NCBI GenBank assembly: GCA_032433765.1
Contig: JAVIAB010000024.1
Coordinates: 13,410,578 to 13,474,577, forward strand
DNA from: Megaustenia siamemsis
Taxonomy: Eukaryota; Mollusca; Gastropoda; Stylommatophora; Ariophantidae
Reading direction: 5' to 3'
Length of the DNA stretch: 64,000 bases
Shown piece by piece: positions 4,846 to 62,465 of this stretch (its first letter is position 1; each line of letters starts with the position of its first letter). Below the pieces are notes generated by a model, which was not told the DNA's origin, did no database searches, and saw nothing but the letters and a program-made list of their open reading frames with translations. The position numbers and the translations under genes were made by a program.

Positions 4846-4881
4846 GTTTTTAAAGTTAAAGAAAAGGAACTAGAGGCAAGG
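4846..4881 (+). CDS. Candidate micro-exon 1 (36 nt)
   Basis: The acceptor is TTATGTCTTTCTCAG and the donor GTAGGT. In phase 0 the exon reads VFKVKEKELEAR, a charged, helix-prone peptide; phase 1 has TAG and phase 2 has TAA, so only phase 0 is open. It is the first of 13 short, symmetric, same-strand exons that I infer to form one gene. No start codon or signal-peptide exon is seen upstream in the window, so the 5' end probably lies outside. The intron side of the donor is duplicated in inverted orientation at 129-358. RNA evidence would settle it. Confidence 0.65.
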
Positions 4882-5246
4882 GTAGGTAATGAGAAACATG
4901 CTATTTGTAGAAGTAGACGAAATATCTTCTCCCTGAGTGATCTTAGTAAATTGTACACAGACTGTACACTCTAAGGTATTATCTTGTAACCATGGCATCA
5001 TTAGATTACGTCATAAGTTCTGGTCGTAAGTGAGAAAGTGATAAACGGGATGTAATTCTTGAAAGGAGATATTAACTGGATTGGCAGTGGCGTTTCTAAC
5101 AATGCAAAGAAATTCTCATGGATAATTGCATAAACAGTTAACGGACATCAAGTGGGCTCCCTCTCTTCGTTGACCGAGTGATAATGAACTATGTTGATAA
5201 ACACACACATATGTCCTTAACTAAAATCTGACATATTCTGTTTCAG

Positions 5247-5267
5247 ATAAAAGGTTTGATAAATTCA
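5247..5267 (+). CDS. Candidate micro-exon 2 (21 nt)
   Basis: Acceptor CATATTCTGTTTCAG, donor GTAAGTAACG. Phase 0 reads IKGLINS; phase 1 starts with TAA. It lies only 365 bp after exon 1, the shortest intron of the set, in sequence with no recognised repeat. Confidence 0.68.
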
Positions 5268-6294
5268 GTAAGTAACGTGATATATGATGTGTTTAGTCCT
5301 GATTGTCCGTAAAAATAAGCTTGATTTTACATGAAGGTTATCGTACGGGGGTCACCAGCATCGTTATCATCGCATAGTTTGCCTTGTTTAAACTTAACTC
5401 CCGTAACAGCCACTTTGAACATTCTTTTATCCTGAGTGAGATATCCAGCGTCTGCAACAGTCATTCCCAGCCTATCTTTTATATCTAGTATCTACCTTCG
5501 TATTTGCCCTCCCAAATCTCTATCTCAACTCATAAGACCTTAATGGAAGCAGCCAAAAGATGAACGAAACACCGTAGCGATGGCGCATAATCTCTAAAGC
5601 GAAACCTCGGGTTGACTTTCAGGAACAATCCACATTAAGTGCTGCGAGTAAACTTCGAACAAACCAACAAGTGTTATTGAATAGCTCCCAATGGCATGAC
5701 ATATTCAGCCTATCAACTCCACGATGTTTGAAGGTTGCGTTCACAACACTTTTATTGCCAAAGAACCCGCTGGCAGGCGCATGGATTCAGTAGCACCAGC
5801 GTTAATTTTCTAAGTGGAACATCCGGCTAACTCTAACTTAGCAATTTCCATTGGAGAGTCGAAATCAATCAATCTCCAAACACTAATTCTGCAGCGGTTT
5901 GATGGAACATAAGCACTAGTCGACCATCTTAAAACTGGAAATCCAAGACACCTGTGGCGTGGGGAGGTACGAGTACGTGTCAATCCGACGAAGACAACGG
6001 TGGCATGGTTTTATTTTAAAAATGACACAGTCAATAAGTCAAAGCCAGATATGAATGTCTTTGTACAGATGTGTATGCACTGGCGATCCTGAATCTCCGA
6101 AAAAAAACGCTAGTGGAATGACTGGAAAAGTTGCAAAATGCGGCAATGTGCATCGTCCTTGAGTGCACCTTCTTGATTTTCCCACCATGGCAGACAGAAT
6201 AAGACTTAGCCTAGCTATGCCTACTTTCGAATCAGTGCAGATCCGGAACATCCGATATTCTTTGAGTTTGCTGGTACAGAATGTATTATTGTTA
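5268..6294. other. Unassigned intronic sequence
   Basis: Mostly unique sequence with no LINE motif, tandem repeat or convincing exon. Minus-strand ORFs here are short and featureless. Confidence 0.4.
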
Positions 6295-6548
6295 ATCATC
6301 ATCATCATCAAATCCCGGGCCTGCTGGCGTTGGTGATCATGTCTCTCCACAACTTTCCATCTCGACAGTTTTTTATGTTGTTGACCTACTGCCAAGCCAT
6401 TCTCTTAAGCTGTCTGGTAATTTTTCTCTTTGCTTCCCTCTATCTCACGTCCCTCAATTTTCCCAGTTGTTACAATATATTCAAGCTGTTATCTTCTCAT
6501 TACATGGCCAAAAAATCATGATTGTTTCTTCGTAATATTGGAAATTAT
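6295..6548 (-). mobile_element. LINE family A 3' tail
   Basis: Minus strand: (GAT)n tail at 6,295-6,310, then the reverse-coded C-terminus with family A blocks (NNC/RSTTEM-like, EYIVTTGK, GHVMR). The copy is truncated at about 6,548 and frameshifted. Confidence 0.78.
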
Positions 6549-6757
6549 AGAGTGGGCACGAGTGCCGTCAGAGTGCAGTACTCCCTTCCTCGTGGTCATC
6601 ACACAGGACAAAAAATGTAAACAGCAAAACCCATTGGTTGTTAAGACCAGAAGTGCTGTTTTTAATTTTCGAGAATTCTTCTGAGAGAGGCACAGTAATG
6701 TTCACAGATTTATCTGTTGTTCGATACATATGAGGTTCCTGAGTTTCCGCAGTCTAT

Positions 6758-7082
6758 CATCATCATATAGCCTGCCGGCTGGCGTAGGCGATCATGTCCC
6801 TCCACAATCTTCTATCCACAGTGCATCGTATCAGTTCTGTTGTTGACTGTTTTCCATGCCATGACACCAAGCTATCCAGTATTTTCTCTCTTTGTCGTCC
6901 GCGATCACCGTTTCCTTTTATTTTACCAGTTGTAACCAAGTATTCCAACTTGCCTCTTCTCATGATGTGCCCGAAAAATGTTGATTGCTTCTTTCTGATG
7001 TTTTTTAAGAGCTCCCTTTTTGTGTTGGCCTCTTTGAGAATTTCCTCATTGGTCTTTTTATCTGTCCAGGGAACTTTCAACA
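6758..7082 (-). mobile_element. LINE family B, 5'-truncated, with target duplication
   Basis: Reads on the minus strand MLKVPWTDKKTNEEILKEAN, FFGHIMRRGKLEYLVTTGKI, then STTELIRCTVDRRLWRDMI, with a short ATGATGAT tail. It is uninterrupted over more than 100 codons, so fairly young. A 13-bp target duplication (TTCCGCAGTCTAT) flanks it at 6,745-6,757 and 7,083-7,095. Only the C-terminal part of the RT ORF was inserted. Confidence 0.9.
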
Positions 7083-7452
7083 TTCCGCAGTCTATGTTGG
7101 AGTCAGTGGTGCTTTCGCATTGGTTACAAGTAGTCTGCATGGAAATTATTATTAACACTAAATCTCTAGCATGGCTAGAGACACAGCCTTATACAAATAT
7201 GTGTTTACTCAGTGACATATAAGAGTATGCTCAGAAAGATTTTATTGGCTGGACTCGAAGGCATGGTCAGACTCTCGGGGGATGTTATCTAACAAAAGTC
7301 TACGTTGTTTTTCGAGCCAGGGTACGCGGGTGTAAAAGGTAATGAGTAAGCTGACAGACTTGTCAGTTGAGTGCACAAGGGCAAATGGCGCAAAGACATT
7401 CTGAAAATTTTCGGCGAGTCTAGATGAAAAAAAATAATATTTATAAAATGCC

Positions 7453-8381: not shown

Positions 8382-8394
8382 TATATATTTATAC

Positions 8395-11716: not shown

Positions 11717-11746
11717 ATTAGGATAATGCAAAATGACACAATAGAT
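11717..11746 (+). CDS. Candidate micro-exon 3 (30 nt)
   Basis: Acceptor ATCCTTTCATTGACAG, donor GTAAGTTTTT. Phase 0 reads IRIMQNDTID; phase 1 contains TAA and phase 2 TAG, so only phase 0 is open. The I..MQN..D pattern resembles exon 10 (IGDVMQNARD), consistent with exon duplication. Confidence 0.68.
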
Positions 11747-12929: not shown

Positions 12930-15746
12930 TTATTGAGTTATTGAGTTATTGAGGTATTGAGTTATTTGCGGGTCATCATCATTGCACTCCGAACATGTCC
13001 ATAGGTGCTCAGATCCCCTCCTCAGCAATTCACTCAGTGTTCAGCGACTGACGACTCCAGTTCTATGTTGGTTGATAAGTCTTCTTACACGGCCACCAAG
13101 TTTCTCATTTCTGGCTGTGCCCATCTTAACTCCCATTTCCATCATCTGAAGAAGTGACGTTGATCTGTGTTTGTCGAAGTCCTGTGCTCTTCCCACATCT
13201 CGGAGTGCATTGATGATGTCCGCCCGATCCATCGGTTGCCCGTCCTCAACGACAGCGCAGCTAACCAACCTGTCCGCTCTCTCATTTCCCCGTACTCCCG
13301 CATGTCCAGGGACATAGACAAAAGTGACCTTACGTATTTTGGATTTCTGCAACGACTCTACCCATTGCATGCGTACAAAGCCCGCCTCCACATTTTTTAT
13401 CATGCTCATCTAATCACTCAGTATACATTGGTGGATGTAGTCTTGTGACTCTAACCATTTGAATGCCTTGGTCACTGCCATCACCTCCATTGTCATGCTA
13501 CTCGTGGTCATGGCGTATGCACCACTGTTTTCCTTGGCTATTCTGCCTGCCGAGCATGCTGTCAATGCCCATGCACTTCTTTCGTGTCGTCTTACATATC
13601 CGTCTGTATAGATGACTGCATCTTTCTCATCGGTGTTATCGCAGATGAGACCGTTGACCTCAGCATTAACCACGACCGGGTTCTGTTCCCTACTTTTCCT
13701 GTCGAGTGTGACAATACATGAGAAAGTCCCCTTGAATGACGTAGGCACCGGTATCCACTCCTCACCAACGCTGATATTGGTAAGCCCACAGACCTGTTTG
13801 ATGACATCTTCTGCTCGGCCCACCCATGATTTGCCTCTTTTTAGCCTGGTACCTTTCTCTGTGTTGAGCACGTGGTGCAATGGATGCTCTGTATCTGTAC
13901 TAATCTTCAGGTATGCTCGTGCTTTACAGATCTTGATTCTGTCATCCATGGTTGGAAAGTCAAGAAGATACCTCATTGCTACACAGGGAGTGTCCCTCGT
14001 ACATCCCAGGATAATGCGCATGGCTTCATTTTGTATTTTCTCCAGCCTATCAATTTGAGTCGTACTGACAGTAAGAATGGCCAGGGCATACTCGATTGCT
14101 GCGAGGACTAATCCCTGGAACAGAAGAGTAAGTAGCCTCTGCTCGATGTTGGCAGCTGCCATGACCTTCAAGGCGGCTAATCCGTTGCGGGATTTTGTTA
14201 TCACATGGTCGACGTGGTCCCGAAAACACAGGCTGCGATCAAACGTAACTCCGAGGTATGTCATCAACTTGTCCCTGGTCACCTCATCAGCTCCCATTCG
14301 TACTACCGTGTGGTCGTATTAACGATATGATTGTTAAGGGAGAACCATGAAACTGATGCTTTATTAGGATTAACCAAGGCACCTGAAACCCCACACCAGG
14401 AAGAAATGCGATCGAGTTCGTCTTGCATTGTGGAGGCGATTCCCCGTCTGTCTCTTCCCTGTCGATATACCAGAATATCATCAGCAAAAGTTATAGTTCT
14501 TCCCCTCCCATCCAGCTGTTGGGCCGTGATCATTATTGTGTACACGTTAAATAGAACTGGTGACAATGGTGAGCCTTGTGGCAGCCCAGGACAAATGGAT
14601 GTTGGCTCGGAATACCAACTTCCACATCTGAGTATCACCTCCTCTGAAACAGTGCCGCGACGATCCATCTAATGAGGAAGGGTTCACCGCCAGTTTGAGA
14701 AGCATATGCATGAGATAATTATTGGTACCCTGGTGTATGCATCCTCCAGATCTTTAGCAGCAGCACATGTCTCCTCTCGTCTGTGGAAGCCTTCGAAGAC
14801 GTCATAGGCAAAGACTGCCGCATTGAGTCATTGATCTTTGTTATATCTATAACCTCCGAGTGTGGATGGGAATACACGTTTCTGTTCAAAGCGACAGGTG
14901 AGGACACGGGCAACTATTTTCTCCAGCAGCTTGCCCGCAGTGTTCTGTATTGTGATGATTCTGTAAGCACTGATCTGAGAATAGTCCTTGTTTGGCTTCG
15001 GTAGCGGTAGTAAGTAGCTGTCTAGCCACTCCTCCTTAATCTGGCCACTCCGAATACTGGCATTAAACTCATTGGCCAGTGATGTCAAGTCGTCATCAGC
15101 TAAATCGCCTATGTCATCGTACTGAACACCATCTGGACCAGGAGCAGTGTTGTGTGACCTTTTAAGTGTCGTGCGAATGGTATCGTTTGTGATTGTGAGA
15201 TCTTCTTCCAGCCCTACATCCTTACACAATTTTGACAGCGATCCCCGTATCTTCATTCTTACAGCCTCATAACTTTGGCCCGTCTGCTCAATGTAGCGGG
15301 CAAGCAGGGCCTTCCCTTTGCTCTCATCAGATTTGTGCCATATCTGGCCTGTGCTCTGAAAGTCTGGTATACCTCTGTGTCGAGGTGTGCCATTCATGCA
15401 CTGATGAAGACGCCAGAATGTGGCGAGCGATTTTTCTGAGCACACATTTTTACAGAAGTCATCCCATTTGGCATCCTTAGCCTGCTTAGCGCATAGTTTA
15501 AAGTGCATCATTTTTTGGTCGACTTCTACTTTCAGACGTTTCAAGAGCTCAGGTTGTGTTCTACCATACCTTCTGGCTTTCTGCCATGTCTTGACCGTTT
15601 GTCTCTTGCTCCGCCAAGCTTCCTCGACATCTACGTTCCACCAGGGTGGCTGCGTCCATCTCTCCTGCCTCCTACTAGGGGCGCTCTGTTTCCTATGTCT
15701 GATTTTGCTAATGACGTCCTGGTCTGTTTTCTCGTAGTTGAATGTA
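12930..15746 (-). mobile_element. LINE family H, 3' part (EN-RT-RNase H type), broken
   Basis: The minus strand carries the second half of a family H element. From high to low coordinate it has the end of the linker, RT (HNTAPGPDGVQ, LPKPNKDYSQISAYRIIT, GLPQGSPLSPVLFNVYT, TFADDILVYRQG) and RNase H (AVIYTDG, LSDSMSMI, VPGHAGVRGNERADR). It ends in TGATGATGACCCGCAAATAA and a tail of (AATAACTC)-type 8-mers at 12,930-12,970. It matches the 55-59 kb copy closely. It is split into ORFs at 14,828-15,544, 14,303-14,668, 13,410-14,297 and 13,041-13,409 by frameshifts and a gap of catalytic-core sequence around 14,670-14,830, so it is inactive. Confidence 0.92.
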
Positions 15747-15970
15747 TAGGGAGACGCACCAAGATGGCATCCTGTTAACTGACCTCTTCATAAGACTCAC
15801 AGATAAGTGCTGTTTTCCAGTGAAATTTCCTGTTTATTTGTTTGTTTTTATTTATTTTTTAAGGAACCATGTGAGTGTAAGCGCTTTCTATTTGATGTAA
15901 ATCACTTTGCTTCTTTTGATTCATTGCATTTTGTTATAATTTCCTTATTTCATCACTTATTATTGTTGTA
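15747..15970. other. Unexplained 224-bp filler between the two LINE-H parts
   Basis: T-rich sequence that matches neither the other family H copy nor any other element in the window. It lies exactly between the antisense 3' part and the sense 5' part of LINE-H. It could be RNA upstream of the element carried into the insertion, or filler from a second event. Confidence 0.5.
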
Positions 15971-17935: not shown

Positions 17936-17965
17936 GTTTTTCCAATGGCGCTTGTACTGCTTAAC
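17936..17965 (+). CDS. Candidate micro-exon 4 (30 nt)
   Basis: Acceptor GACTTTATTTTATAG, donor GTAAGTGATG. Phase 0 reads VFPMALVLLN, strongly hydrophobic; phase 2 ends in TAA. It lies just beyond the 5' break of a family A LINE, in a short non-repetitive gap. Confidence 0.68.
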
Positions 17966-20099: not shown

Positions 20100-20120
20100 A
20101 TGCACTATACTGCATCCTCG
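20100..20120 (+). CDS. Candidate micro-exon 5 (21 nt)
   Basis: Acceptor GGTTCTCTCTTTCAG, donor GTAAGTACTT, among the strongest splice-site pairs in the set. Phase 0 reads MHYTASS. YTA at the same positions as in exon 9 (IGYTAKR), and the same 21-nt length, suggest that these two are related. Confidence 0.7.
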
Positions 20121-25079: not shown

Positions 25080-25109
25080 TTCCTGTTTGCATTCAGAAAT
25101 TTGAGAGAC
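25080..25109 (+). CDS. Candidate micro-exon 6 (30 nt)
   Basis: Acceptor ATTGTGTCTTCATAG, donor GTAAGTAGTA. Phase 0 reads FLFAFRNLRD; phase 1 has TGA. The NxRD end is shared with exon 10 (QNARD). An internal TTCAG could serve as an alternative acceptor, but would leave 13 nt and break the frame. Confidence 0.68.
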
Positions 25110-29264: not shown

Positions 29265-29294
29265 TTTTGCAAACAGAGCAATGGAATCACTCTA
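29265..29294 (+). CDS. Candidate micro-exon 7 (30 nt)
   Basis: Acceptor ATATCTCTTCTTTCAG, donor GTAAGTACGA: both near-consensus. Phase 0 reads FCKQSNGITL. It sits in a gap of only about 115 bp between a LINE-F tail (ends 29,195) and a LINE-G tail (starts about 29,312), so its survival there argues for selection. Confidence 0.72.
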
Positions 29295-30999: not shown

Positions 31000-31032
31000 A
31001 AAGAATATACATTGACATCAATCGTGACAGAA
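31000..31032 (+). CDS. Candidate micro-exon 8 (33 nt)
   Basis: Acceptor TTTTTATATTCTCAG, donor GTAAGTGTTA. Phase 0 reads KEYTLTSIVTE; phase 1 has TGA. A family E LINE begins just downstream. Confidence 0.7.
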
Positions 31033-33494: not shown

Positions 33495-33515
33495 ATTGGA
33501 TACACAGCGAAACGA
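33495..33515 (+). CDS. Candidate micro-exon 9 (21 nt)
   Basis: Acceptor CTGTTGAATTTCAG, donor GTAAATTTTG, a weaker donor than the rest. Phase 0 reads IGYTAKR, similar to exon 5 (MHYTASS). It lies 110 bp before a 1.4-kb array. Confidence 0.58.
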
Positions 33516-33627: not shown

Positions 33628-35000
33628 TTTCTTTATAGTCGTCATCTGCTTCTTTCTTTATAGTCGTCATCTGCATCTTTCTTTATAGTCGTCATCTGAA
33701 TCTTTCTTTATAGTCGTCATCTGCTTCTTTCTTTATAGTCGTCATCTGCTTCTTTCTTTATAGTCGTCATCTGCATCTTTCTTTATAGTCGTCATCTACT
33801 TCTTTCTTTATAGTCGTCATCTGAATCTTTCTTTATAGTCGTCATCTGCATCTTTCTTTATAGTCGTCATCTGCTTCTTTCTTTATAGTCGTCATCTGAA
33901 TCTTTCTTTATAGTCGTCATCTGCATCTTTCTTTATAGTCGTCATCTGCATCTTTCTTTATAGTCGTCATCTACTTCTTTCTTTATAGGCGTCATCTGAA
34001 TCTTTCTTTATAGTCGTCATCTGCATCTTTCTTTATAGTCGTCATCTGAATCTTTCTTTATAGTCGTCATCTGCATCTTTCTTTATAGTCGTCATCTGAA
34101 TCTTTCTTTATAGTCGTCATCTGCATCTTTCTTTATAGTCGTCATCTGCTTCTTTCTTTATAGTCGTCATCTGCTTCTTTCTTTATAGTCGTCATCTGCA
34201 TCTTTCTTTATAGTCGTCATCTGCTTCTTTCTTTATAGTCGTCATCTGCTTCTTTCTTTATAGTCGTCATCTGCTTCTTTCTTTATAGTCGTCATCTGCA
34301 TCTTTCTTTATAGTCGTCATCTGAATCTTTCTTTATAGTCGTCATCTGCTTCTTTCTTTATAGTCGTCATCTGCTTCTTTCTTTATAGTCGTCATCTGCA
34401 TCTTTCTTTATAGTCGTCATCTACTTCTTTCTTTATAGTCGTCATCTGAATCTTTCTTTATAGTCGTCATCTGCATCTTTCTTTATAGTCGTCATCTGCT
34501 TCTTTCTTTATAGTCGTCATCTGAATCTTTCTTTATAGTCGTCATCTGCATCTTTCTTTATAGTCGTCATCTGCATCTTTCTTTATAGTCGTCATCTACT
34601 TCTTTCTTTATAGGCGTCATCTGAATCTTTCTTTATAGTCGTCATCTGCATCTTTCTTTATAGTCGTCATCTGAATCTTTCTTTATAGTCGTCATCTGCA
34701 TCTTTCTTTATAGTCGTCATCTGAATCTTTCTTTATAGTCGTCATCTGCATCTTTCTTTATAGTCGTCATCTGCTTCTTTCTTTATAGTCGTCATCTGCT
34801 TGTTTCTTTATAGTCGTCATCTGCATCTTTCTTTATAGTCGTCATCTGCTTCTTTCTTTATAGTCGTCATCTGCATCTTTCTTTATAGTCGTCATCTGCA
34901 TCTTTCTTTATAGTCGTCATCTGCATCTTTCTTTATACTCGTCATCTGCATCTTTCTTTATAAACCTTGTTTGCCACTTTCTTTATACTCTTTGTCTGCA
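33628..35000 (-). repeat. 25-bp minisatellite, about 54 copies
   Basis: Units TCTTTCTTTATAGTCGTCAT plus CTGCA. Reverse translation gives ADDDYKER, and the last units on the right grade into ADKEYKES next to a LINE thumb (YGSESWTFA) at 35,000-35,060. Probably LINE-derived, less sure than the others. Blocks of unit variants recur (33.86-34.10 and 34.46-34.70 kb), so internal duplications of several units occurred. Confidence 0.88.
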
Positions 35001-38128: not shown

Positions 38129-38158
38129 ATTGGTGATGTGATGCAAAACGCGCGGGAC
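38129..38158 (+). CDS. Candidate micro-exon 10 (30 nt)
   Basis: Acceptor TCAATATTTTCTCAG, donor GTAAGTATAA. Phase 0 reads IGDVMQNARD; phase 1 has TGA and phase 2 has TGA, so only phase 0 is open. The GC-rich core (AACGCGCGGGAC) contrasts with the AT-rich neighbourhood. Confidence 0.72.
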
Positions 38159-38309
38159 GTAAGTATAATGATCTAGAACTCACACAAATGTGAATAATGA
38201 ATTATTAATTTATTATATAATATTAATTAATTTATACAAGTTCCAATGGAGATAGAAGGCATTATGATAATAGCTCAGAACGATCGAAATGGAGTCCAGT
38301 AGTCCCATT

Positions 38310-45600: not shown

Positions 45601-48600
45601 AACAACACGATCAATGGAAGACACTTAAAACATCAACAACAAGATCAATGGAAGACACTTAAAACATGAACAACACGATCGATGGAAGACATTTAAAGCA
45701 TCAACAACAAGATCAATGGAAGACATTTAAAACATCAACAACAAGATCAATGGAAGACACTTAAAACATGAACAACACGATCAATGGAAGACACTTAAAA
45801 CATCAACAACAAGATCAATGGAAGACACTTAAAACATGAACAACACCATCGATGGAAGACACTTAAAATATGAACAACAAGATCATTGGAAGACACTTAA
45901 AACATGAACAACAAGATCAATGGAAGACACTTAAAACATCAACAACACAATCTATGGAAGACACTTAAAACATCAACAACAAAATCAATGGAAGACACTT
46001 AAAACATCAACAACAAGATCAATGGAAGACATTTAAAGCATCAACAACATGATCGATGGAAGACACTTAAAACATCAACAACAAGATCAATGGAAGACAC
46101 TTAAAACATGAACAACACGATCGATGGAAGACATTTAAAACATCAACAACACGATCAATGGAAGACATTTAAAGCATCAACAACAAGATCGATGGAAGAC
46201 ACTTAAAACATGAACAACACGATCGATGTAAGACATTTAAAGCATCAACAGCAAGATCGATGGAAGACATTTAAAACATCAACAACAAGATCGATGGAAG
46301 ACATTTAAAACATCAACAACAAGATCGATGGAAGACATTTAAAACATGAACAACACGATCGATGGTAGACATTTAAAGCATCAACAACAAGATCGATGGA
46401 AGACATTTAAAACATCAACAACAAGATCGATGGAAGACACTTAAAACATCAACAACACGACCGATGGAAGACATTTAAAGCATCAACAACAAGATCGATG
46501 GAAGACATTTAAAGCATCAACAACAAGATCAATGGAAGACACTTAAAACATGAACAACACGATCGATGGAAGACATTTAAAACATCAACAACACGATCAA
46601 TGGGAGACATTTAAAACATCAACAACAAGATCGATGGAAAACATTTAAAACATGAACAACACGATCGATGGAAGACATTTAAAACATCAACAACAAGATC
46701 GATGGAAGACATTTATAACATCAACAACAAGATCTATGGAAGACACTTAAAATATGAACAACACGATCGATGGAAGACATTTAAAGCATCAACAACAAGA
46801 TCGATGGAAGACATTTAAAACATCAACAACACGATCGATGGAAGACATTTAAAACATCAACAACAAGATCGACGGAAGACATTTAAAACATCAACAACAA
46901 GATCGATGGAAGACATTTAAAGCATCAACAACAAGATCAATGGAAGACACTTAAAACATGAACAACACGATCGATGGAAGACATTTAAAACATCAACAAC
47001 AAGATCGATGGAAGACATTTAAAGCATAAACAACAAGATCGATGGAAGACACTTAAAACATCAACAACACGATCGATTCAAGACATTTAAAGCATTAACA
47101 ACAAGATCAATGGAAGACAATTAAAACATGAACGACACGATCGATGGAAGACATTTAAAGCATCAACAACAAGATCAATGGAAGACACTTAAAACATGAA
47201 CAACACGATCGATGGAAGACATTTAAAGCATCAACAACAAGATCGATGGAAGACATTTAAAACATCAACAACAAGATCGATGGAAGACATTTAAAGCATC
47301 AACAACAAGATCGATGGAAGACATTTAAAATAACAACAACACGATCGATGGAAGACTTTTAAAACATCAACAACAAGATGAATGGAAGACACTTAAAACA
47401 TCAACAACAAGATCAATGGAAGACACTTAAAACATGAACAACACGATCGATGGAAGACATTTAAAGCATCGACAACACGATCAATGGAAGACATTTAAAG
47501 CATCAACAACACGATCGATGGAAGACACTTAAAATATCAACAACACGATCGATGGAAGACATTTAAAGCATCAACAACACGATCAATGGAAGACATTTAA
47601 AACATCAACAATACGATCAATGGAAGACATTTAAAGCATCGATAACACGATCAATGGAAGACATTTAAAGAATCGACAACACGATCAATGGAAGACATTT
47701 AAAACATCAACAACACGATCGATGGAAGACACTTAAAACATCAACAACACGATCAATGGAAGACATTTAAAACATCAACAACACGATCAATGGAAGACAC
47801 TTAAAACATCAACAACAAGATCGATGGAAGACACTTAAAGCATCAACAACAAGATCGATGGAAGACACTTAAAACATCAACAACACGATCGATGGAAGAC
47901 ATTTAAAGCATCAACAACACGATCAATGGAAGACATTTAAAACATCAACAACACGATCAATGGAAAACACTTAAAACATCAACAACACGATCGATGGAAG
48001 ACATTTAAAACATCAACAACAAGATCAATGGAAGACATTTAAAGCATCGACAACACGATCGATGGAAGACACTTAAAAGCATCAACAACACGATCAATGG
48101 AAGACACTTAAAACATGAACAACACGATCTATGGAAGACACTTAAAACATCAACAACACGATCGATGGAAGACACTTAAAACAACAACAACACGATCGAT
48201 GGAAGACACTTAAAGCATCAACAACACGATAAATGGAAGACACTTAAAACATCAACAACACGATCAATGGAAGACAATTAAAACATCAACAACACGATCA
48301 ATGGAAGACACTTAAAACATGAACAACACGATCTATGGAAGACACTTAAAACATCAACAACACGATCGATGGAAGACACTTAAAACAACAACAACACGAT
48401 CGATGGAAGACACTTAATGCATCAACAACACGATCAATGGAAGACACTTAAAACATCAACAACACGATCTATGGAAGACACTTAAAACATCAACAACACG
48501 ATCAATGGAAGACACTTAAAACATCAACAACACGATCAATGGAAGACACTTAAAACATCAACAACACGATCAATGGAAGACACTTAAAACATCAACAACA

Positions 48601-49375
48601 AGATCAATGGAAGACACTTAAAATATCAACAACACGTTCGATGGAAGACACTTAAAACATCAACAACACGATCAATGGAAGACACTTAAAACATCAACAA
48701 CACGATCAATGGAAGACACTTAAAACATCAACAACTCGATCAATGGAAGACATTTAAAACATCAAGAACACGATCGATGGAAGACATTTAAAACAAGTGG
48801 AGGAATTTAAATATTGAAGAAGTCTAGTGACAAACGACAATTCACAAACAGCAGAAATAGACTCAAAATGCAACAAAGCTTCTCAAATCATTGGACAGCG
48901 ATCACCACTATTTTCCAACAACGAAATAACCATAACGGCAAAACGGGCACTCTACAATATTACAACGTTGTACTATCAATACCGCACCATGACTCTTGTC
49001 TCAAGAACAATAATAATTAAAAAAACAAACAATACTGAGATGTGTTAGACCAATGATATAAAACATCCTGATGGACACAGTCAGACAGGAAAAACTGAGA
49101 AACAATTAGGAATAATGCATGCCGTAAACTCATAAACAAACAATTGATAAGATGTTTAGCCACGTAATAAGGGAGAAAGATCAAAATACAACACAACAAG
49201 CCTTTAATAAAAAACCTTACTCAACATCAAACTCACGGGCCGATCAGTTTAGCTGAAGGAAAAGTAGAACCATTGGGAAACAAAGGCCAACAGAAAGCAG
49301 ACAACCGTAAATTATGTCTCACCTCGACGCTGAAAGGCAGATTAGAAGAAACGAGGAAGAAAAAGAAGAATTATA
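42690..49375 (+). mobile_element. LINE family G containing the giant array
   Basis: Left of the array: NKEVMNTAKVKQNINNTIDG and RH. Right of it (48,790 on): QVEEFKYL-like (VEEFKY), VTNDNSQTAEIDSKCNKASQ, IIGQ, then EITITAKRALYN, decayed CYQ/SQTW, KNTR/IKWFGH-like remains, and SPRR (PSTLKG region) near 49,320. These are consecutive parts of one RT, with 6 kb of tandem repeats in place of a dozen codons. Confidence 0.87.
42749..48795 (+). repeat. Giant 34-bp minisatellite, about 178 copies, from LINE-G codons
   Basis: Units AACAACACGATCGATGGAAG plus ACACTTAAAACATC; one unit plus its start spells NINNTIDGRHLK. Since 34 is one more than 33, the frame cycles every three units. Common variants: CGATCG/CGATCA/AGATCG/AGATCA, ACACTT/ACATTT, AACATC/AGCATC/AACATG. 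A 57-unit block (about 42,885-44,822) is repeated almost exactly at 44,823-46,760. Confidence 0.96.
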
Positions 49376-49593: not shown

Positions 49594-49620
49594 TTTAGGA
49601 AAGTGCATCTTTCTCCACGC
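49594..49620 (+). CDS. Candidate micro-exon 11 (27 nt)
   Basis: Acceptor GATCCTATATCTTCAG, donor GTAAGTAAAA. Phase 0 reads FRKVHLSPR; phase 2 has TAG. It follows the longest intron of the series (11.4 kb), which includes both the 32-bp and the giant 34-bp arrays. Confidence 0.68.
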
Positions 49621-51059: not shown

Positions 51060-52015
51060 TTACACGAGTGAGTGATGGCGTGAATGTAGGAAAACATGGT
51101 TAGCTTCCCCTATTGTGTGAGTGAGTGATGGCGTGAATATAGGAAAACATAGTTAGCTTCCCCTATTGTGTGAGTGAGTGATGGCGTAAATATAGGAAAA
51201 CATAGTTAGCTTCCCCTATTGTATGAGTGAGTGATGGCGTGAATATAGGAAAACATAGTTAGCTTCCCCTATTGTATGAGTGAGTGATGGCGTGAATATA
51301 GGAAAACATAGTTAGCTTCCCCTATTGTGTGAGTGAGTGATGGCGTGAATATAGGAAAACATAGTTAGCTTCCCCTATTGTGTGAGTGAGTGATGGCGTG
51401 AATATAGGAAAACATAGTTAGCTTCCCCTATTGTGTGAGTGAGTGATGGCGTGAATATAGGAAAACATAGTTAGCTTCCCCTATTGTGTGAGTGAGTGAT
51501 GGCGTGAATATAGGAAAACATAGTTAGCTTCCCCTATTGTGTGAGTGAGTGATGGCGTGAATATAGGAAAACATAGTTAGCTTCCCCTATTGTGTGAGTG
51601 AGTGATGGCGTGAATATAGGAAAACATAGTTAGCTTCCCCTATTGTATGAGTGAGTGATGGCGTGAATATAGGAAAACATAGTTAGCTTCCCCTATTGTG
51701 TGAGTGAGTGATGGCGTGAATATAGGAAAACATAATTAGCTTCCCCTATTGTATGAGTGAGTGATGGCGTGAATATAGGAAAACATAGTTAGCTTCCCCT
51801 ATTGTGTGAGTGAGTGATGGCGTGAATATAGGAAAACATAGTTAGCTTCACCTATTTTGTGTGAGTAAGTGATGGCGTGAATATAGGAAAACATAGTTAA
51901 CTTCTCCTATTGTATTAGTGAGTGATCGCATGAATGTAGGAAGACATTGCTAGCTTCCCCTATTCTATGAGTTAGTGATGGTGTGAATGTAGGAAAACAT
52001 AGCTAACTTCTCCTA
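51060..52015. repeat. 53-bp minisatellite, about 18 copies
   Basis: Units GTGAGTGAGTGATGGCGTGA, ATATAGGAAAACATAGTTAG, CTTCCCCTATTGT. Central copies are nearly identical; the outer ones are diverged, as expected from growth in the centre. A + strand reading ECRKTWLASPIV is faintly LINE-like but not convincing. Confidence 0.93.
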
Positions 52016-52214
52016 TTGTATAAGTGAATGAAGGAGTAAGTGAATGAACAATCAATATATTAGTGAATGAGGAAATGAGCTAGTGATTGAGATTGCATGT
52101 CCAATACTAGCATCGTAACACTGATGTTTCTATCGTTCACCACTAATTTAATAATTATTACTCAGACGAGATAGGCTACAAGTAATATCAACCGTTTACT
52201 AATTAACACTAATT

Positions 52215-52427: not shown

Positions 52428-53746
52428 CTTCTTCCTCTGCTTTTCTCTTTCACTGATACCTAGAAGGTGTCGTGGTTTATATCATTTGTCGTTCTTGTGC
52501 TGCTCGAATTGTCTGAATTAGTAATTTTCCTTTGTTGTTACATGTCTCTGTCACTGCATCTATCCATCTTCTTCTGGGTCTTCCTCTTGGTCTTTTTTCA
52601 TGCATTCTCGAGAAGAACGCCCTTGATGGTGATTGGTAAGGATTCATTCTGACCAGGTGGCCAAACCATTTAAGTTGTTGTTGTTCTATATATTCTTGGC
52701 AGGGTTTTGTTCTTACCATTTTTCTTATGGTTTCATTTGGTATTCTATCTCTTCTTGTGTTGTTTGTTACTTTTCTCAAGCAACGCATCTCACATGTATT
52801 GATCTTTCTTAAATGTGATTTAGAAAGGGTCCATGTTTGACTTTCATAGCACAAAGTTGGTATGAAAATGCTATTTATCATTTGTTGTTTAGCTGGCATA
52901 GAAATGTTTGGATGTCTTAGCAATGGTGAAAGCTGGTATGTGACAGCATTTGCTTTTTGTATTCTCATGTCAATTTCTCTGTCTAGTTCTGTGAACATTG
53001 TGCCCAAATACTTGAATTCTTCTACTTGTTTTATTTCTTTATCTTTGATCTTAATGTTTAATGGGTGTCTTAATTTACTTAATCTCATAGCCTCTGTTTT
53101 TGCCGTGTTAATTTTCATACTGTAGTTTGTGCAGCTTTTAGCTAGAGATGTTATATGTTGTTGTAGCAGGTTTTCGTCCTCATATATTAGGCATTGGTCA
53201 TCTGCGAAGAGTAGCTCGTTGATGTTGGAGTTTTCTACCTCTATGTTATTATGTGATTTGTCCTTATTGTTGGTTGTTTCCTGATTTATTTTGTCCATAT
53301 ATATGATGAAGAGGAGTGGTGAGAGGACACATCCTTGTCTTACTCCTGTTGTAACCTGAAACCATTCTGACAGACCTTCCAATGTTCTGACGGCACTTTG
53401 ACTGTTTTTATATAATGCCCTTATATTATCTAGTAGTTGTCCTGCTACCCCGTAGGTTTCTAAAGTTTGCCAAAGTTTGTTCCTGTCCGCACGATCAAAC
53501 GCTTTTTCCTGATCTATAAACACTATATTTAGGTTTCTGTCATATTCTATTGTTTTTTTCACATAGTTGTCTCAATGTAAATATAGCATCAGTACAGCTT
53601 TTGCCTTTTCTGAATCCGAATTGATTATTACTTAATTAAGGTTCTATTATGTATCTTACTCTCCTCTCCAATATTTTAGCATACATTTTACCAACTTGAC
53701 TCAATAGGGATATTTCTCTGTACATTTCACACTCCCTTTTACTTGA
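52428..53746 (-). mobile_element. LINE family F inserted in LINE-G, with target duplication
   Basis: A 1.3-kb 5'-truncated insertion with direct repeats ATAGAAT at 52,421-52,427 and 53,747-53,753. The reverse strand begins within RT (CYREISLLSQVGKMYAKILE, NNQFGFRKGKSCTDAIFTL) and continues in the 361-codon ORF. The 3' end is a (GAA)-rich tail. Confidence 0.85.
52477..53562 (-). CDS. LINE family F reverse transcriptase (partial ORF, 361 aa)
   Basis: Partial RT of a non-LTR retrotransposon, which would copy element RNA at the target site. In order: IVFIDQEKAFDRADR (motif A; catalytic D in FxDxEKAFD), TGVRQGCVLSPLLFIIYMDK (motif B), NELLFADDQCLIYED (motif C, catalytic DD), then thumb EEFKYLGTM, FIPTLCYESQTWTL, KWFGHLVRM, RPRGRPRRRWIDAVTE and AAQERQMI. 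The catalytic boxes are intact. An A-run at about 53,555-53,562 shifts the frame from the preceding RT part, and no endonuclease is present, so it is a 5'-truncated pseudogene with a long surviving ORF. No host gene is implied. Confidence 0.88.
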   Translation of the reverse strand: MKKTIEYDRNLNIVFIDQEKAFDRADRNKLWQTLETYGVAGQLLDNIRALYKNSQSAVRTLEGLSEWFQVTTGVRQGCVLSPLLFIIYMDKINQETTNNKDKSHNNIEVENSNINELLFADDQCLIYEDENLLQQHITSLAKSCTNYSMKINTAKTEAMRLSKLRHPLNIKIKDKEIKQVEEFKYLGTMFTELDREIDMRIQKANAVTYQLSPLLRHPNISMPAKQQMINSIFIPTLCYESQTWTLSKSHLRKINTCEMRCLRKVTNNTRRDRIPNETIRKMVRTKPCQEYIEQQQLKWFGHLVRMNPYQSPSRAFFSRMHEKRPRGRPRRRWIDAVTETCNNKGKLLIQTIRAAQERQMI

Positions 53747-54658: not shown

Positions 54659-54685
54659 TTTGATGAAGCATTGGCTGCATACATG
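54659..54685 (+). CDS. Candidate micro-exon 12 (27 nt)
   Basis: Acceptor TTACGATACCTCTTAG, donor GTAAGTAAAT. Phase 0 reads FDEALAAYM; phase 2 starts with TGA. It survives in a 200-bp gap between a LINE-B and a LINE-C copy. Confidence 0.7.
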
Positions 54686-55332: not shown

Positions 55333-55519
55333 TCATTTAATTTGTAGAAAGCTCTCAGTGTTTCCGCGTGCTGCTGAGCAAGTTACTGGAGCTGGCCAGT
55401 TTATAACGTGGAACGGGTTCTGGGCCGTGCGACTGAGCAAGTGCACGTGAGTCTGGACCATCCAAAGCATCGACGTTCAGCGACGTTCATCAAAGACGAC
55501 GGTAAGTGTAAGTTTTCAG

Positions 55520-57658
55520 ATGCAACCCAAACTACATCATCGAAGAAGGAAAAAACGACGGGGCAAGAGGGGTGGCACTAAACTGTCGAAGTGTGAGAGG
55601 CTAGGCCTAATGTATGTGCGCGTTACTTATTGGAATTGTGGGTCCATTAATCAACGACGGCCCATTCTTGATAAGCTACTGTGCGGCGCCGATATAATGG
55701 TTTTGCAAGAAACTCTTCTTGCTGACAGGACAGTAAGTACTCCTGGCTTTCATTGTTTTTACAATAGACGACACCTTGGGCAGGCCATCCTTGTGCGCAA
55801 CAATATGGTGGCAGCTGAGGTTGATATGTCTGTGTGGAACAATGCAGAATTGCAGGTACATGCGGTTAGGGTGCAGACCCCAGTTCATTTCGTGATTGTA
55901 AATGTGTATGCCTGTAATGGGAAGGTGAACACACAACAATGGCAGAATCTCTTCGAATTCGATGAAGAGAATGTCATTTTCTGCGGAGACTTTAATGCTA
56001 GAGGAAACCAGTGGGGTAACGTCATAACCAACAAGCAGGGAGAAGACCTAGAGAACGCACTGGTATCGGCCGATTTAGTGTGCTTGAATGATGGAAGGAC
56101 AACAAGAATGGCCACTCGAACAGGGGACTCTGATAGTGTCATAGACCAGGCACTGGTGTCTTCCACCTTTGCACCGGTTTGCAGGTGGAATGCACTGGGG
56201 TTCCACGGAAGTGATCACTATCCATGTGGCCTCCTAATTGAGAAAGGTGGAAGTAAAAGCCAGAGAAGAAAGCTCCACACATTCAACTACGAGAAAACAG
56301 ACCAGGACGTCATTAGCAAAATCAGACATAGGAAACGGAGTGCCCCTCGTAGGAGGCAGGAGAGATGGACGCAGCCACCTTGGTGGAATGTAGATGTCGA
56401 GGAAGCTTGGCGGGGCAAGAGACAAACGGTCAAGACATGGCAGAAAGCCAGAAGGTATGGTAGAACACAACCTGAACTCTTGAAGCGTCTGAAAGTAGAG
56501 GTCGACCAAAAAATGATGCACTTTAAACTATGCGCTAAGCAGGCTAAGGATGCCAAATGGGATGACTTCTGTAAAAAAGTGTGCTCAGAAAAATCGCTCG
56601 CCACATTCTGGCGCCTTCATAAGTGCATGAATGGCACACCTCGACACAGAGGTATACCAGACTTTCAGAGCACAGGCCAGATATGGCACAAATCTGATGA
56701 GAGCAAAGGGAAGGCCCTGCTTGCCCGCTACATTGAGCAGACGGACCAAAGAAATGAGGCTGTAAGAATGAGGATACGGGGATCTTTGTCAAATTTGTGT
56801 AAGGATGTAGGGCTGGAAGAAGATCTCACAATCACAACCGATACCATTCGCACGACACTTAAAAGGTCACACAACACTGCTCCTGGTCCAGATGGTGTTC
56901 GGTACGTTGACATAGGCGATTTAGCTGATGACGACTTGACAACACTGGCCAATGAGTTTAATGCCAGTATTCGGAGTGGCCAGATTAAGGAGGAGTGGCT
57001 ACACAGCTACTTACTACCGCTACCGAAACCAAACAAGGACCATTCTCAGATCAGTGCCTACAGAATCATCACAATGCAGAACACTGCGGGCAAGCTGCTG
57101 GAGAAAATAGTTGCCCGTGTCCTCACCTGTCGCCTTGAACAGAAACGCGTATTCCCTTCCACACTCGGAGGTTATAGATATAACAAAGAGACATGGCTCA
57201 ATGCGGCAGTATTTGCCTATGATGTCTTCGAAGGCTTCCACAGACGAGAGGAGACATGTGCTGCTGCTATAGATCTGGAGGATGCATACAACAGGGTACC
57301 ATTTGAATATCTCATGCATGTGCTTCTCAAACTGGCGGTGAACCCCTTCCTCATTAGATGGATCGCCGCGGCACTGTTTCAGAGGAAGGTGATACTCAGA
57401 TGTGGAAGTTGGTCTTCCGAGCCAACATCCATTTGTCCAGGGCTGCCACAAGGCTCACCATTGTCACCAGTTCTATTTAACGTGTACACAATAACGATCA
57501 CGGCCCAACAGCTGGATGGGAGGGGAGGAACTATGACTTTTGCTGATGATATTCTGGTATATCGACAGGGAAGAGACAGACGGGGAATCGCCTCCACAAT
57601 GCAAGACGAACTCGATCGCATTTCTTCCTGGTGTGGGGGTTTCAGGTGCCTTGGTTAA
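55520..57658 (+). CDS. LINE-H endonuclease-reverse transcriptase ORF (712 aa, frameshifted end)
   Basis: N-terminal basic stretch (residues 4-18), then an APE-type endonuclease: YWNCGS (N39), LQETLL (E64), VNVYA (Y129), GDFNARGNQWG (D157, N159), SVIDQ (D209) and GSDHYP (D232, H233). All expected catalytic positions are present. A linker rich in K/R and W follows (residues about 250-440), then RT: HNTAPGPDGV, AAIDLEDAYNRVP (motif A), GLPQGSPLSPVLFN (motif B), MTFADDILVY (motif C, residues 674-677). A single extra G in a G-run near 57,640 (four in the 14.4-kb copy, five here) moves the ribosome out of frame at WCGG. The protein would nick chromosomal DNA and copy the element's RNA there; this copy cannot. 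Confidence 0.92.
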   Translation: MQPKLHHRRRKKRRGKRGGTKLSKCERLGLMYVRVTYWNCGSINQRRPILDKLLCGADIMVLQETLLADRTVSTPGFHCFYNRRHLGQAILVRNNMVAAEVDMSVWNNAELQVHAVRVQTPVHFVIVNVYACNGKVNTQQWQNLFEFDEENVIFCGDFNARGNQWGNVITNKQGEDLENALVSADLVCLNDGRTTRMATRTGDSDSVIDQALVSSTFAPVCRWNALGFHGSDHYPCGLLIEKGGSKSQRRKLHTFNYEKTDQDVISKIRHRKRSAPRRRQERWTQPPWWNVDVEEAWRGKRQTVKTWQKARRYGRTQPELLKRLKVEVDQKMMHFKLCAKQAKDAKWDDFCKKVCSEKSLATFWRLHKCMNGTPRHRGIPDFQSTGQIWHKSDESKGKALLARYIEQTDQRNEAVRMRIRGSLSNLCKDVGLEEDLTITTDTIRTTLKRSHNTAPGPDGVRYVDIGDLADDDLTTLANEFNASIRSGQIKEEWLHSYLLPLPKPNKDHSQISAYRIITMQNTAGKLLEKIVARVLTCRLEQKRVFPSTLGGYRYNKETWLNAAVFAYDVFEGFHRREETCAAAIDLEDAYNRVPFEYLMHVLLKLAVNPFLIRWIAAALFQRKVILRCGSWSSEPTSICPGLPQGSPLSPVLFNVYTITITAQQLDGRGGTMTFADDILVYRQGRDRRGIASTMQDELDRISSWCGGFRCLG

Positions 57659-59053
57659 TCCTAATAAAGCATCAGTTTCATGGTTCTCCCTTAACAATCA
57701 TATCGTTAATACAACCACACCGGTAGTACGAATGGGAGCTGATGAGGTGACCAGGGACAAGTTGATGACATACCTCGGAGTTAAGTTTGATCGCAGCCTG
57801 TGTTTTCGGGACCACGTCGACCATGTGATAACAAAATCCCGCAAATGATTAGCCGCCTTGAAAGTCATGGCAGCTGCCAACATCGAGCAGAGGCTACTTA
57901 TTCTTCTGTTCCAGGGATTAGTCCTCGCAACAATCGAGTATGCCCTGGCCATTCTTACTGTCAGTACGACTCAAATTTATAGGCTGGAGAAAATACAAAA
58001 TGAAGCCATGCGCATTATCCTGGGATGTACGAGGGACACTCCCTCTGTAGCAATGAGGTATCTTCTTGACTTTCCAACCATGGATGACAGAATTAAGATC
58101 TGGAGAGTACGAGCATACCTGAAGATTAGTACAGATACAGAGCATCCATTGCACCACGTGCTCAACACAGAGAAAGGTACCAGGCTAAAAAGAGGCAAAT
58201 CATGGGTGGGCCGGGCAGAAGATGTCATCAAACAGGTCTGTGGGCTTACCAATATCAGCGTTGGTGAGGAGTGGATACCGGTGCCTACGTCATTCAAGGG
58301 AACTTTCTCATGTATTGTCACACTCGACAGGAAAAGTAGGGAACAGAACCCGGTCGTGGTTAATGCTGAGGTCAACGGTCTCATCTGCGATAATACCGAT
58401 GAGAAAGATGCAGTCATCTATACAGATACGGATCTGTAAGACGACACGAAAGAAGTGCATGGGCATTTACAGCACGCTCAGCAGGCAGAATAGCCAAGGA
58501 AGACAGTGGTGCATACGCCATGACCACGAGTAGCATGACAATGGAGGTGATGGCAGTGACCAAGGCATTCAAATGGTTAGAGTCACAAGACTACATCCAC
58601 GCATGTATACTGAGTGATTCGATGAGCATGATAAAAAAAGTGGAGGCGGGCTATGTACGCATGCAATGGGTAGAATCGTTGCAGAAATCCAAAATACGGA
58701 AGGTCACCTTTGTCTATGTCCCTGGACATGCGGGAGTACGGGGAAATGAGAGAGCGGACAGGTTGGCTAGCTGCGCTGTCGTTGAGGACGGGCAACCGAT
58801 GGATCGGGCGGACATCATCAATGCCCTTCGAGATGTTGGAAGAGCACAGGACTTCGACAAACACATATCAACGTCACTTCTTCGGATGATGGAAATGGGA
58901 GTTAAGATGGGCACGGCCAGAAATGAGAAACTTGGTGGCCGTGTAAGAAGACTTATCAACCAACATAGAACTGGAGTCGTCAGTCGCTGGACACTGAGGG
59001 AATTGCTGAGGAGGGGATCTGAGCACCTATGGACATGTTTCGGAGTGCAATGA
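57640..59053 (+). pseudogene. LINE-H RT thumb, linker and RNase H, broken into pieces
   Basis: Continues VSGALVNPNKASVSWFSLNN to KSRK, a stop at 57,846 (the other copy has a sense codon), then AALKVMAAANIEQRLLILLF, ILGCTRDTPSVAMRYLLDFP and KRGKSWVGRAEDVIKQVCGL to VIYTDTDL. A small insertion near 58,430 shifts the frame again. RNase H resumes at about 58,500: TMEVMAVTKAF (E), ILSDSMSMI (D), FVYVPGHAGVRGNERADRLA (H, D). Ends LWTCFGVQ. The first D of RNase H is in IYTD at the break. Confidence 0.9.
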
Positions 59054-60458: not shown

Positions 60459-60576
60459 GATATGATATCATTTTCAAAATCAAATAATCAATTGATGGTA
60501 TTAACTAGGTAAGAATTCGATTTAGAAAGAATTCAAGAAGTGGATAAGTCACATAATTCCATATTGTTCGCAGTCA

Positions 60577-61200
60577 TCATCATCATCGAGTGCTGTCTCC
60601 ACAACGAAGGTTGGTTACCATGGAGCGCCATTCCACTCTGTTTCTTGCTTTGATGGTGCAGGTTGTCATAGATTGACTTGTCCATCTTTTGATGTTACTC
60701 GTTCATGTTAGTCTTGGTCTGCCTCTGCCTCTTTTACCTTGTATTTTTCCTTCCAATATTACTTTTATTAGGCTGTTGTGTCTTTTAACATGCCCCAAAA
60801 ATATTTCATTTGTCTTGTCTTAATTGTATTTAGAAGTTCTCTTTTTATTTTTAGCTGTTTTAAAACTTCAACGTTTGTTTTCTTTTCTTTCCATCTAATT
60901 CTACCTTTTCATCTGTAAATACGCATTTCAAAGGCTTCAATTTTCTGTTCAGTTTTCTTGTCTAATGTTCATGATTCTGCACTATACAAGAATATTGAGA
61001 AGATGTAACATTTTGCTATTCTTAGTTTCAACCCTGCTGTTATTTGTTTTGTTGTTAGTATATTTTTCATGGCATTAAAATTACTTTTTGCCATTCCTAT
61101 TCTTTTGTTTATTTCAGTGTTCGCAGTATCTTGAAAATGTAGAATATGTTTTTTGAGACGATGTTTAGTTCTAGTCATGAATGGCACGACAAGAAAAATG
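60577..61200 (-). mobile_element. LINE family C, tail-to-tail with the previous copy
   Basis: Minus strand carries HFQDTANTEINKRIGMAKSN, MKNILTTKQITAGLKLRIAK, CYIFSIFLYSAES and decayed C-terminal blocks, with the (GATGATGAT) tail at 60,577. Its 3' end faces the preceding family C copy, 118 bp away. Confidence 0.82.
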
Positions 61201-61206
61201 TGGACA

Positions 61207-61619
61207 GCATCATCTTCATCATCAAGTACCGGGCCTGCTGGCGTAGGTGAACATGTCTCTCCACATCTTTCGATCTCGACAGTTATTTATCATTTCTGTT
61301 GTTGACCATCTGCCAAACCATTCTCTTAAACTGTCTGGTATTTTTTCTCTTTGCTTCCCTCTATCTCTTCGTTCCTCGATTTTTCCAGTTGTTACAATAT
61401 ATTCCAGCTGTTCCCTTCTCATTACATGGCCAAAAAATTATGATTGTTTCTTCCTAATATTGGAAATTAGATATATTTTTGCTTTGGCCTCTTTCAGAAC
61501 GTTTTCATTATAGTACTTAGCTGTCCATGGTATTCTCAACATTCTTTTGTAAAACTACATTTCTACAGCCTCCAGGGATTTTCTTGTCTGTTGCCCTATT
61601 GTCCATGTTTCACATAATG
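61207..61619 (-). mobile_element. LINE family A with target duplication, in LINE-C flank
   Basis: Minus strand: family A C-terminus, KRELISNIRKKQSxFFGHVM-type, MRREQLEYIVTTGKIEERRD, RKMWRDMFTYASRPGT and a (GAT)n tail. Direct repeats ATGTGGACA at 61,198-61,206 and 61,620-61,628. Confidence 0.87.
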
Positions 61620-61628
61620 ATGTGGACA

Positions 61629-62441
61629 TAATCAAGGGCTAGTGTCTGGTTTCCAGTTAATGATCTAACAGCCAATAACAAAGGAGAGAGTAAGAGGAAT
61701 TATGTTGATCAAATAATTATAGAGAACATTTCATCAAGTAATGTAACGATAAGAGTCAATGAATGTGAATCCTGATATTATCCAACTGGCATTATGATAA
61801 TGACCAATCCAATCAATAAACAGAATCCACTAACTCAACTTTGGTGTTATCAAGTTCTAAGTCAAAACCTGCCAAATCTGTTATCATCTTCTGTTGATGG
61901 AACAGTTCGACTGCATTTGGGAATTCCCCATATACGATCATGCGACACACTCCCCCAAAGCGCAAAGTTGGCGAATTCTGTTGACGTGGTCGACAACCGT
62001 CCGTCCCTGAACCTCAGCACAGGCGACAATTCCAAACGACTTTCATCGGAAAATAGAGTGCACAATACAAAAGGAGAGGATGGAAGTAACATGATAAAAT
62101 ACAAGGAGAGATAAATAATGAAGTTAAATAAATTCTATACCATGGCAGGACAATATAAGAACTTCTTAGGAAGATCAGAAGTACAACATAATAATTCTAT
62201 CGAAATTTAAAGTTGAGAAAAAAAAGAGGAAGACGAAGAATGAGAAGAAGAAAGAGGTGGAGAAGAATAAGATGGAGATGAATAAAAGAAGAACAATAAC
62301 AAGTTGAAGAAGATGTCGAGTACAAAGAAAGAAGACATGAAGAACGAGAACAAGTAGAAGTAGAGGAAGTAGAAGAAGAGAAGAGATCGATGCGTGAAGA
62401 ATGGGTATGGAACTGTTAAATAAAAACTAATGTCTTCTCAG
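61629..62441. other. Unassigned; purine-rich tract 62,218-62,400
   Basis: No element recognised in 61,629-62,217; a 106-codon + strand ORF at 61,794 has no known motif. 62,218-62,400 is almost pure A/G on the top strand (GAAGA-type runs). It precedes micro-exon 13. Confidence 0.4.
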
Positions 62442-62465
62442 ACTAAAGATAAGACAACAGTGACA
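62442..62465 (+). CDS. Candidate micro-exon 13 (24 nt)
   Basis: Acceptor ACTAATGTCTTCTCAG, donor GTAAGTACAA. Phase 0 reads TKDKTTVT; phase 1 has TGA and phase 2 starts with TAA, so only phase 0 is open. Last exon in the window; no stop-containing terminal exon or poly(A) signal follows that I can link to it. Confidence 0.7.

Follow-up and report, generated by a model that had tools for sequence, protein, structure and literature searches.

A long one-strand series of predicted micro-exons that would encode amphipathic helix turns in the land semislug Megaustenia siamensis

We analyzed a 64,000-nucleotide stretch of the genome of the land semislug Megaustenia siamensis, positions 13410578-13474577 of contig JAVIAB010000024.1 (C24), referred to here as the window. 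Thirteen short segments on its + strand, each placed between an acceptor and a donor, likely belong, as exons, to one giant micro-exon gene or to several such genes in a row, made of interchangeable amphipathic-helix modules, as judged from the DNA itself. Under the proposed mechanism two or three amphipathic helix turns would be specified by each of the tiny phase-0 exons, the predicted units would be spliced together and translated, an intronic element would aid the definition of such very short exons, and exon choice would vary among transcripts, yielding a long, basic and variable helical protein. Since the units are symmetric, share one phase and correspond to approximately whole turns, any one of them could be left out, inserted or swapped with the reading frame and the helix face kept. 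Coordinates are window positions unless prefixed by a contig, and negative numbers lie upstream of the window.

A one-strand series of symmetric units

All 13 segments, with their acceptors and donors, were found where an earlier note on this DNA had placed them:

4846..4881, + strand, micro-exon 1: 36 nt, VFKVKEKELEAR; the inverted copy described below has this exon with a GTAAGT donor
5247..5267, + strand, micro-exon 2: 21 nt, IKGLINS
11717..11746, + strand, micro-exon 3: 30 nt, IRIMQNDTID
17936..17965, + strand, micro-exon 4: 30 nt, VFPMALVLLN; GTGAGT donor and 5 substitutions in the inverted copy
20100..20120, + strand, micro-exon 5: 21 nt, MHYTASS
25080..25109, + strand, micro-exon 6: 30 nt, FLFAFRNLRD
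29265..29294, + strand, micro-exon 7: 30 nt, FCKQSNGITL
31000..31032, + strand, micro-exon 8: 33 nt, KEYTLTSIVTE
33495..33515, + strand, micro-exon 9: 21 nt, IGYTAKR; donor GTAAAT
38129..38158, + strand, micro-exon 10: 30 nt, IGDVMQNARD
49594..49620, + strand, micro-exon 11: 27 nt, FRKVHLSPR
54659..54685, + strand, micro-exon 12: 27 nt, FDEALAAYM
62442..62465, + strand, micro-exon 13: 24 nt, TKDKTTVT

The donor is GTAAGT in 11 cases and GTAGGT and GTAAAT in one each. The lengths that the note had given (36, 21, 30, 30, 21, 30, 30, 33, 21, 30, 27, 27 and 24 nt) are likewise correct, and all are multiples of three. Phase 0 is open in 13/13 segments, whereas phase 1 is closed in exons 1, 2, 3, 6, 8, 10 and 13 and phase 2 in exons 1, 3, 4, 10, 11, 12 and 13, as had been claimed.

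The chance level was estimated within the window by a fixed rule that counted GTAAGT donors preceded, at 15-60 nt, by a pyrimidine-rich acceptor, and then those of them with a multiple-of-three length and an open phase 0. On the + strand 31 GTAAGT sites gave 12 with an acceptor, 11 with a length divisible by three and 11 that were open; on the minus strand the corresponding numbers were 11, 2, 1 and 0. Thus, the earlier statement that no minus-strand GTAAGT site combines an acceptor with a multiple-of-three length has to be corrected by one site (21 nt), which is closed in phase 0. Sequences simulated under four composition models (40 sequences each) gave mean final counts of 0.5-1.2 and a maximum of 4, which puts the + strand of the window far above chance.

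A splice model built from the 13 exons was run over the window extended by 80 kb on its upstream side and 20 kb on its downstream side, and it detected further units of this type on both sides. A 224-kb scan (-110000 to 114000, lengths 9-75 nt) was then scored with a splice-site model from 23 series exons, and is partly circular in that respect. At a score of at least 20, the + strand pairs were multiples of three in 20/20 cases and open in phase 0 in 19, and the minus strand had 0 pairs; these strongest 20 units were taken without selection on length or frame. Lowering the score to at least 17 gave 40 pairs on the + strand (32 multiples of three) and 3 on the minus strand (2 multiples of three). 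The working list holds 33 predicted micro-exons, together 921 nt or 307 codons, on one strand over 187 kb (-109300 to 77480, that is C24:13301277 to 13488057). Their lengths are 21-36 nt and all divisible by three, all are open in phase 0, and the introns between them range from 365 to 15,204 bases. The 33 were chosen from 39 symmetric open candidates, there being 96 pairs at a score of at least 13 in the 224 kb, 44 of them multiples of three; the symmetry of the weaker members (e.g. -30034, -34903 and 77460) is therefore not evidence, because they were selected for it. Candidates 80770, 30066 and -506 were left out because the inverted copy breaks a splice site, 15864 because it was judged to lie within repeated DNA, though the inverted copy keeps it, and -99290 (9 nt) and 109052 were also omitted. 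A leave-one-out test at a threshold of 18 recovered 24/33 exons against a single minus-strand pair in 224 kb, of a length that is no multiple of three; this test too is partly circular, the 33 having been picked with earlier versions of the same model. The order of lengths is itself regular: wherever a 21-nt exon has a successor in the list, that successor is 30 nt long (8/8 cases; shuffle P 0.0005), which suggests a repeating unit of 21-30-30-30-33/36.

The introns of the series share an element downstream of the donor. When the leading 25 bases of 32 introns are aligned, the information in columns +9 to +25 amounts to 5.25 bits, compared to 1.54 bits (sd 0.34, maximum 3.53, 2000 draws) at random GTAAG/GTGAG sites of the region. 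Two examples are:

38159..38183, + strand, donor and shared intronic element after micro-exon 10
62466..62490, + strand, donor and shared intronic element after micro-exon 13

The element may help the recognition of exons too short for ordinary exon definition. Flanks are in some cases related between units: 73 upstream bases are homologous between -64263 and -54745, and 27 between -97854 and -95472, with quite different exons in both pairs, and a few further flank matches resemble a dispersed repeat. This homology indicates that duplication of exons along with their flanks contributed at least in part to the growth of the array.

Encoded peptides and like units across the genome

The periodicity of the encoded peptides was measured as a hydrophobic moment (window 18) and compared with residues shuffled within exons, the first residue being kept. 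The 307-residue concatenation had a moment at 100 degrees of 0.889 versus 0.681 (sd 0.063) in shuffles (P 0.0003); it was highest at 100-110 degrees and showed no excess at 170 degrees. Shuffling the order of the exons left the moment unchanged (0.875, sd 0.034). Peptide sets from wider in the genome, which exclude near-identical variants and one 33-nt exon of contig C100, gave the same picture: 1.472 versus 1.036 (sd 0.094; 0/5000 shuffles) for 28 exons from C100, C24, C155 and C49, 1.663 versus 1.157 (sd 0.092; 0/5000 shuffles) for 34 distinct C100 heptapeptides, and 1.587 versus 1.150 (1/5000 shuffles) for the 23 of these left after removal of look-alikes. Heptapeptides are hydrophobic at positions 1 and 4 and polar at positions 3, 6 and 7, with the moment peaking at 100 degrees. 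Seven residues make about two turns of a helix and 10-11 about three, and we infer that whole helix turns explain the exon lengths. The 307 residues include 52 Lys + Arg, 28 Asp + Glu and 1 Cys.

The whole assembly (2,591,239,911 bases, 155 contigs) was searched with three patterns, each consisting of an acceptor, 18-37 free bases and GTAAGTAA, and defined without reference to frame. Patterns 1 and 2 gave 77 and 54 matches compared to 31 and 22 for the reversed control; 125/131 were tabulated, after removal of six rows, five from a repeated C101 unit and one from an overlap on C155. In the 30-70 Mb region of C100 the length was divisible by three in 30/32 matches (8 of 21 nt, 21 of 30 nt and 1 of 33 nt, the two exceptions measuring 29 nt), and all 30 were open in phase 0. 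The inverted near-identical arms of C24 had 8/9 multiples of three, whereas outside both regions the proportion was 36/84 and lengths were flat. Pattern 3 gave 132 matches versus 100 for the control, with lengths counted among the 99 matches listed, six of them without letters. In this listed set, C100 had 45/47 multiples of three, 38 of them 21 nt long, and phase 0 was open in each of the 41 for which letters were given; elsewhere 22/52 were multiples of three. Pooled over the patterns, again among the matches listed, 75/79 C100 matches (30-70 Mb) were divisible by three, 71 of them 21 or 30 nt long, compared to 58/136 elsewhere, and the symmetric C100 matches with letters were open in phase 0 in 71/71 cases. 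The difference in multiples of three between C100 and elsewhere has a Fisher P of 2e-7 for patterns 1 and 2 and of 4e-9 for the listed matches of pattern 3, some C100 matches being near-identical pairs, so that the counts are partly non-independent, and the elsewhere class retaining a few look-alike units on C24, C49, C50 and C155. The C100 matches lie on both strands, dispersed over about 40 Mb.

Further look-alike units of 21 or 30 nt were noted at C24:10023370, 10754511 and 11459826, at C49:27968060, 28539674 and 29392424, and at C155:4730916, 5768309 and 7845133. Some of the C24, C49 and C155 units form near-identical pairs, and an exon on C50 has the same sequence as one on C24. These units suggest that smaller micro-exon clusters exist outside C100 and the C24 arms.

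Contrary evidence and alternative readings

Several results weigh against the reading of these units as translated exons of one system, and they bear on different alternatives. One is that chance, or selection by eye, produced the series. The segments were indeed first picked by eye, and among 90 permutations of GTAAGT put through the naive count, ATATGG scored 23 on the + strand of the window, higher than GTAAGT itself, while ATGATG scored 16 on the minus strand. We provisionally attribute these two high counts to the tandem arrays of the window. The far lower counts in simulations and on the opposite strand, the extension of the series into DNA beyond the original window and the replication of the pattern genome-wide make chance a scarcely credible explanation.

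The helix signal, together with the heptad-length exons, would also be expected of an ordinary conserved coiled-coil or helical-repeat gene whose exons became tiny by happenstance in this lineage. One detail of the peptides counts against the module reading: Ala or Thr stood at position 5 in 12/17 of the first-collected heptapeptides, whereas Ser, Leu and Ile are the most frequent residues there in the C100 set collected later. The 120-residue concatenation of the window exons had no homolog among 5.8 billion proteins, a search that covered this shorter version and not the 307-residue one, and the concatenated exons had neither a Pfam match above cut-off nor a convincing PDB match. These missing matches count against the reading preferred here and also against an ordinary conserved gene. 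Nor did the 13 longer open candidates on the + strand (12 on the minus strand) offer such a gene, being by eye mostly repeats, mobile-element fragments or overlaps with micro-exons. We regard an ordinary helical gene as very improbable.

A different kind of evidence comes from a near-identical inverted copy of the window about 1.4 Mb away. Inverted near-identical arms extend over C24:12.04-13.42 Mb, with genome matches pairing about a centre near C24:12.73 Mb, and a 39-nt pattern of the micro-exon 10 site (up to 3 mismatches) had 2 matches in the genome, one in the window and one in the inverted copy. Either a large, true palindrome or a second haplotype that was left in the assembly in reverse orientation could account for the arms. 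The latter option is raised because the size estimated from k-mers in the M. siamensis genome paper, about 2.2 Gb, is below the 2.59 Gb assembled (PMC11178922).

Comparison of the two copies covered 17 exons, three candidates with splice sites broken in the copy having been excluded beforehand. The exons differed at 25/471 sites (5.3%) and their flanks at 397/11,935 (3.3%; resampling P 0.05), and 19/21 changed codons alter the residue. An earlier test of 15 exons with pooled flanks had given P 0.006. Thus, purifying selection on the 17 exons is not evident from this comparison; faster change in the exons, or positive selection between copies, is suggestive only. Splice-site windows changed at the flank rate (11/357), with no constraint seen between copies. 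Units that appear to have lost a single base were also found. In the other copy exon -42432 is 29 nt long and contains a stop, C100 has two matches of 29 nt and two of 20 nt that look decayed, and a 20-nt unit at C24:13342071-13342090 (-68506 to -68487), which carries a strong donor and the intronic element and is one base short of 21, is likely a decayed micro-exon. Finally, the ends of the predicted gene did not emerge. The 224 kb held no convincing signal-peptide first exon, the series reaching the upstream edge of the scanned DNA, and a donor was preceded by a phase-0 frame that starts hydrophobic in 10 cases on the + strand (0 with GTAAGT) and 21 on the minus strand; no clear last exon was seen downstream of the series as far as position 100000, and none was sought between units.

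The absence of purifying selection between copies, splice windows changing at the flank rate, units with single-base losses and the missing first and last exons are all consistent with splice-ready units in an array that is a decaying or non-translated relic within introns or untranslated RNA. Against this stand the symmetry of the strongest 20/20 units in 224 kb, the strong helix periodicity in phase 0 and the C100 set, symmetric in 75/79 of the matches listed. The 17 compared exons also contained no indel, while 70% of random flank draws include a deletion, a weak point given that splice-broken candidates had been excluded beforehand. Together, these observations make a relic unlikely in our judgment.

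The missing ends bear as well on how the units are grouped, as the 33 could be several shorter micro-exon genes in a row whose first and last exons were missed. The apparently repeating length unit, the occurrence of C100 matches on both strands across about 40 Mb and the tandem clusters that MEGs (micro-exon genes) likewise form in tapeworms favor such an arrangement; that all 33 units share one strand and one phase, with no convincing first exon between them (last exons there were not sought), speaks for a single gene. We hold several genes to be quite possible, if somewhat doubtful. A single giant gene or a run of genes would both fall under the reading of interchangeable helix modules that we prefer.

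Surrounding DNA and relation to known micro-exon systems

Downstream of the series a fibrinogen C-terminal domain exon lies on the minus strand at C24:13514339-13514458 (103762-103881; PF00147, E 4.7e-12). A piece near 99000-99115 is fibrinogen-like by eye, and a coil-like open frame occupies 111839-112438. By its sequence this looks like a fibrinogen-related gene on the strand opposite to the micro-exons; fibrinogen-related genes are an immune lectin family of snails. The window itself is dense in minisatellites, with 54 tandem-repeat rows in 64 kb, among them arrays at 3118-4388, 33617-34962, 40068-41765, 42743-48795 and 51066-52031; one array repeats a 34-base unit 178 times across 6 kb. 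A non-LTR retroelement with endonuclease and reverse transcriptase domains lies at 55451-59050 (+), its best relatives being short metagenome contigs (47% identical). A second at 13413-15787 (-) has a weak RNase H match and frames that resemble the + copy, and a reverse transcriptase frame is present at 52480-53571 (-). No Rfam families or tRNAs were found in the window. Elsewhere in the assembly, the sole COX1 match is a partial copy beside tandem repeats at C151:10323780-10324580. Its translation under the invertebrate mitochondrial code shares 98% identity with Megaustenia imperator, the next named matches being other land snails and slugs at up to 89%, and the copy is likely a recent nuclear insertion of mitochondrial DNA.

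The structure described in the earlier note is real and longer than the part seen there, whereas its comparison with the micro-exon genes of schistosomes does not carry over as a class assignment, the host being a land semislug. MEGs have been defined by at least seven exons, at least half of them shorter than 70 nt and divisible by three, in runs of at least four (PMC7653826), and the 33 predicted exons, picked as they were from symmetric open candidates, agree with this exon definition. MEG products are said to carry a signal peptide, and MEGs "appear to be restricted to platyhelminths" (PMC4350168), a range to which the mollusc M. siamensis does not belong. As these sources describe them, the MEGs of schistosomes and tapeworms resemble the snail series in a coding region made mostly of very small exons with lengths divisible by three, and we also count as likenesses their tandem expansion in tapeworms and fast protein change in schistosomes. 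The snail series differs in that its lengths cluster at 21 and 30 nt and its introns of 0.4-15 kb extend over 187 kb. Its exons would code for interchangeable amphipathic helix turns, which may be a further difference. The schistosome gene VAL-6 similarly has a part made of very small symmetrical exons (PMC4350168), there joined to a VAL gene, whereas the snail series has no detected domain. Since the host is a mollusc, we place the series outside the flatworm class, as a counterpart that works like a MEG and not as a member.

The bicycle genes of aphids offer a second comparison. Their internal exons start in phase 2 and a megacycle gene has more than 100 micro-exons (PMC9168663), so that many small internal exons of one phase are common to both systems. 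However, the 33 snail exons are open in phase 0, with phases 1 and 2 each closed in 7/13 exons of the window, and the CYC motifs of bicycle proteins are absent from the snail series, which has 1 cysteine in 307 residues.

No micro-exon gene of a mollusc was found in the open-licence literature. Micro-exons are hard for gene finders and read mappers to handle, and the series may therefore be missing from the published annotation; its predicted splicing can be directly tested with the published foot and mantle RNA-seq of M. siamensis. If true, a mollusc case on such a scale would suggest that the micro-exon design arises repeatedly, and the match to helix turns would give a reason for symmetric tiny exons, as their gain, loss or skipping would be harmless to both frame and fold. 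More tentatively, and at a little less than even confidence, we propose that land snails hold an independently evolved superfamily of at least hundreds of helix-turn micro-exons, with one block spanning about 40 Mb of a single chromosome, in which any choice of exons would keep the frame and the helix face: a combinatorial toolkit for endless amphipathic helical proteins.

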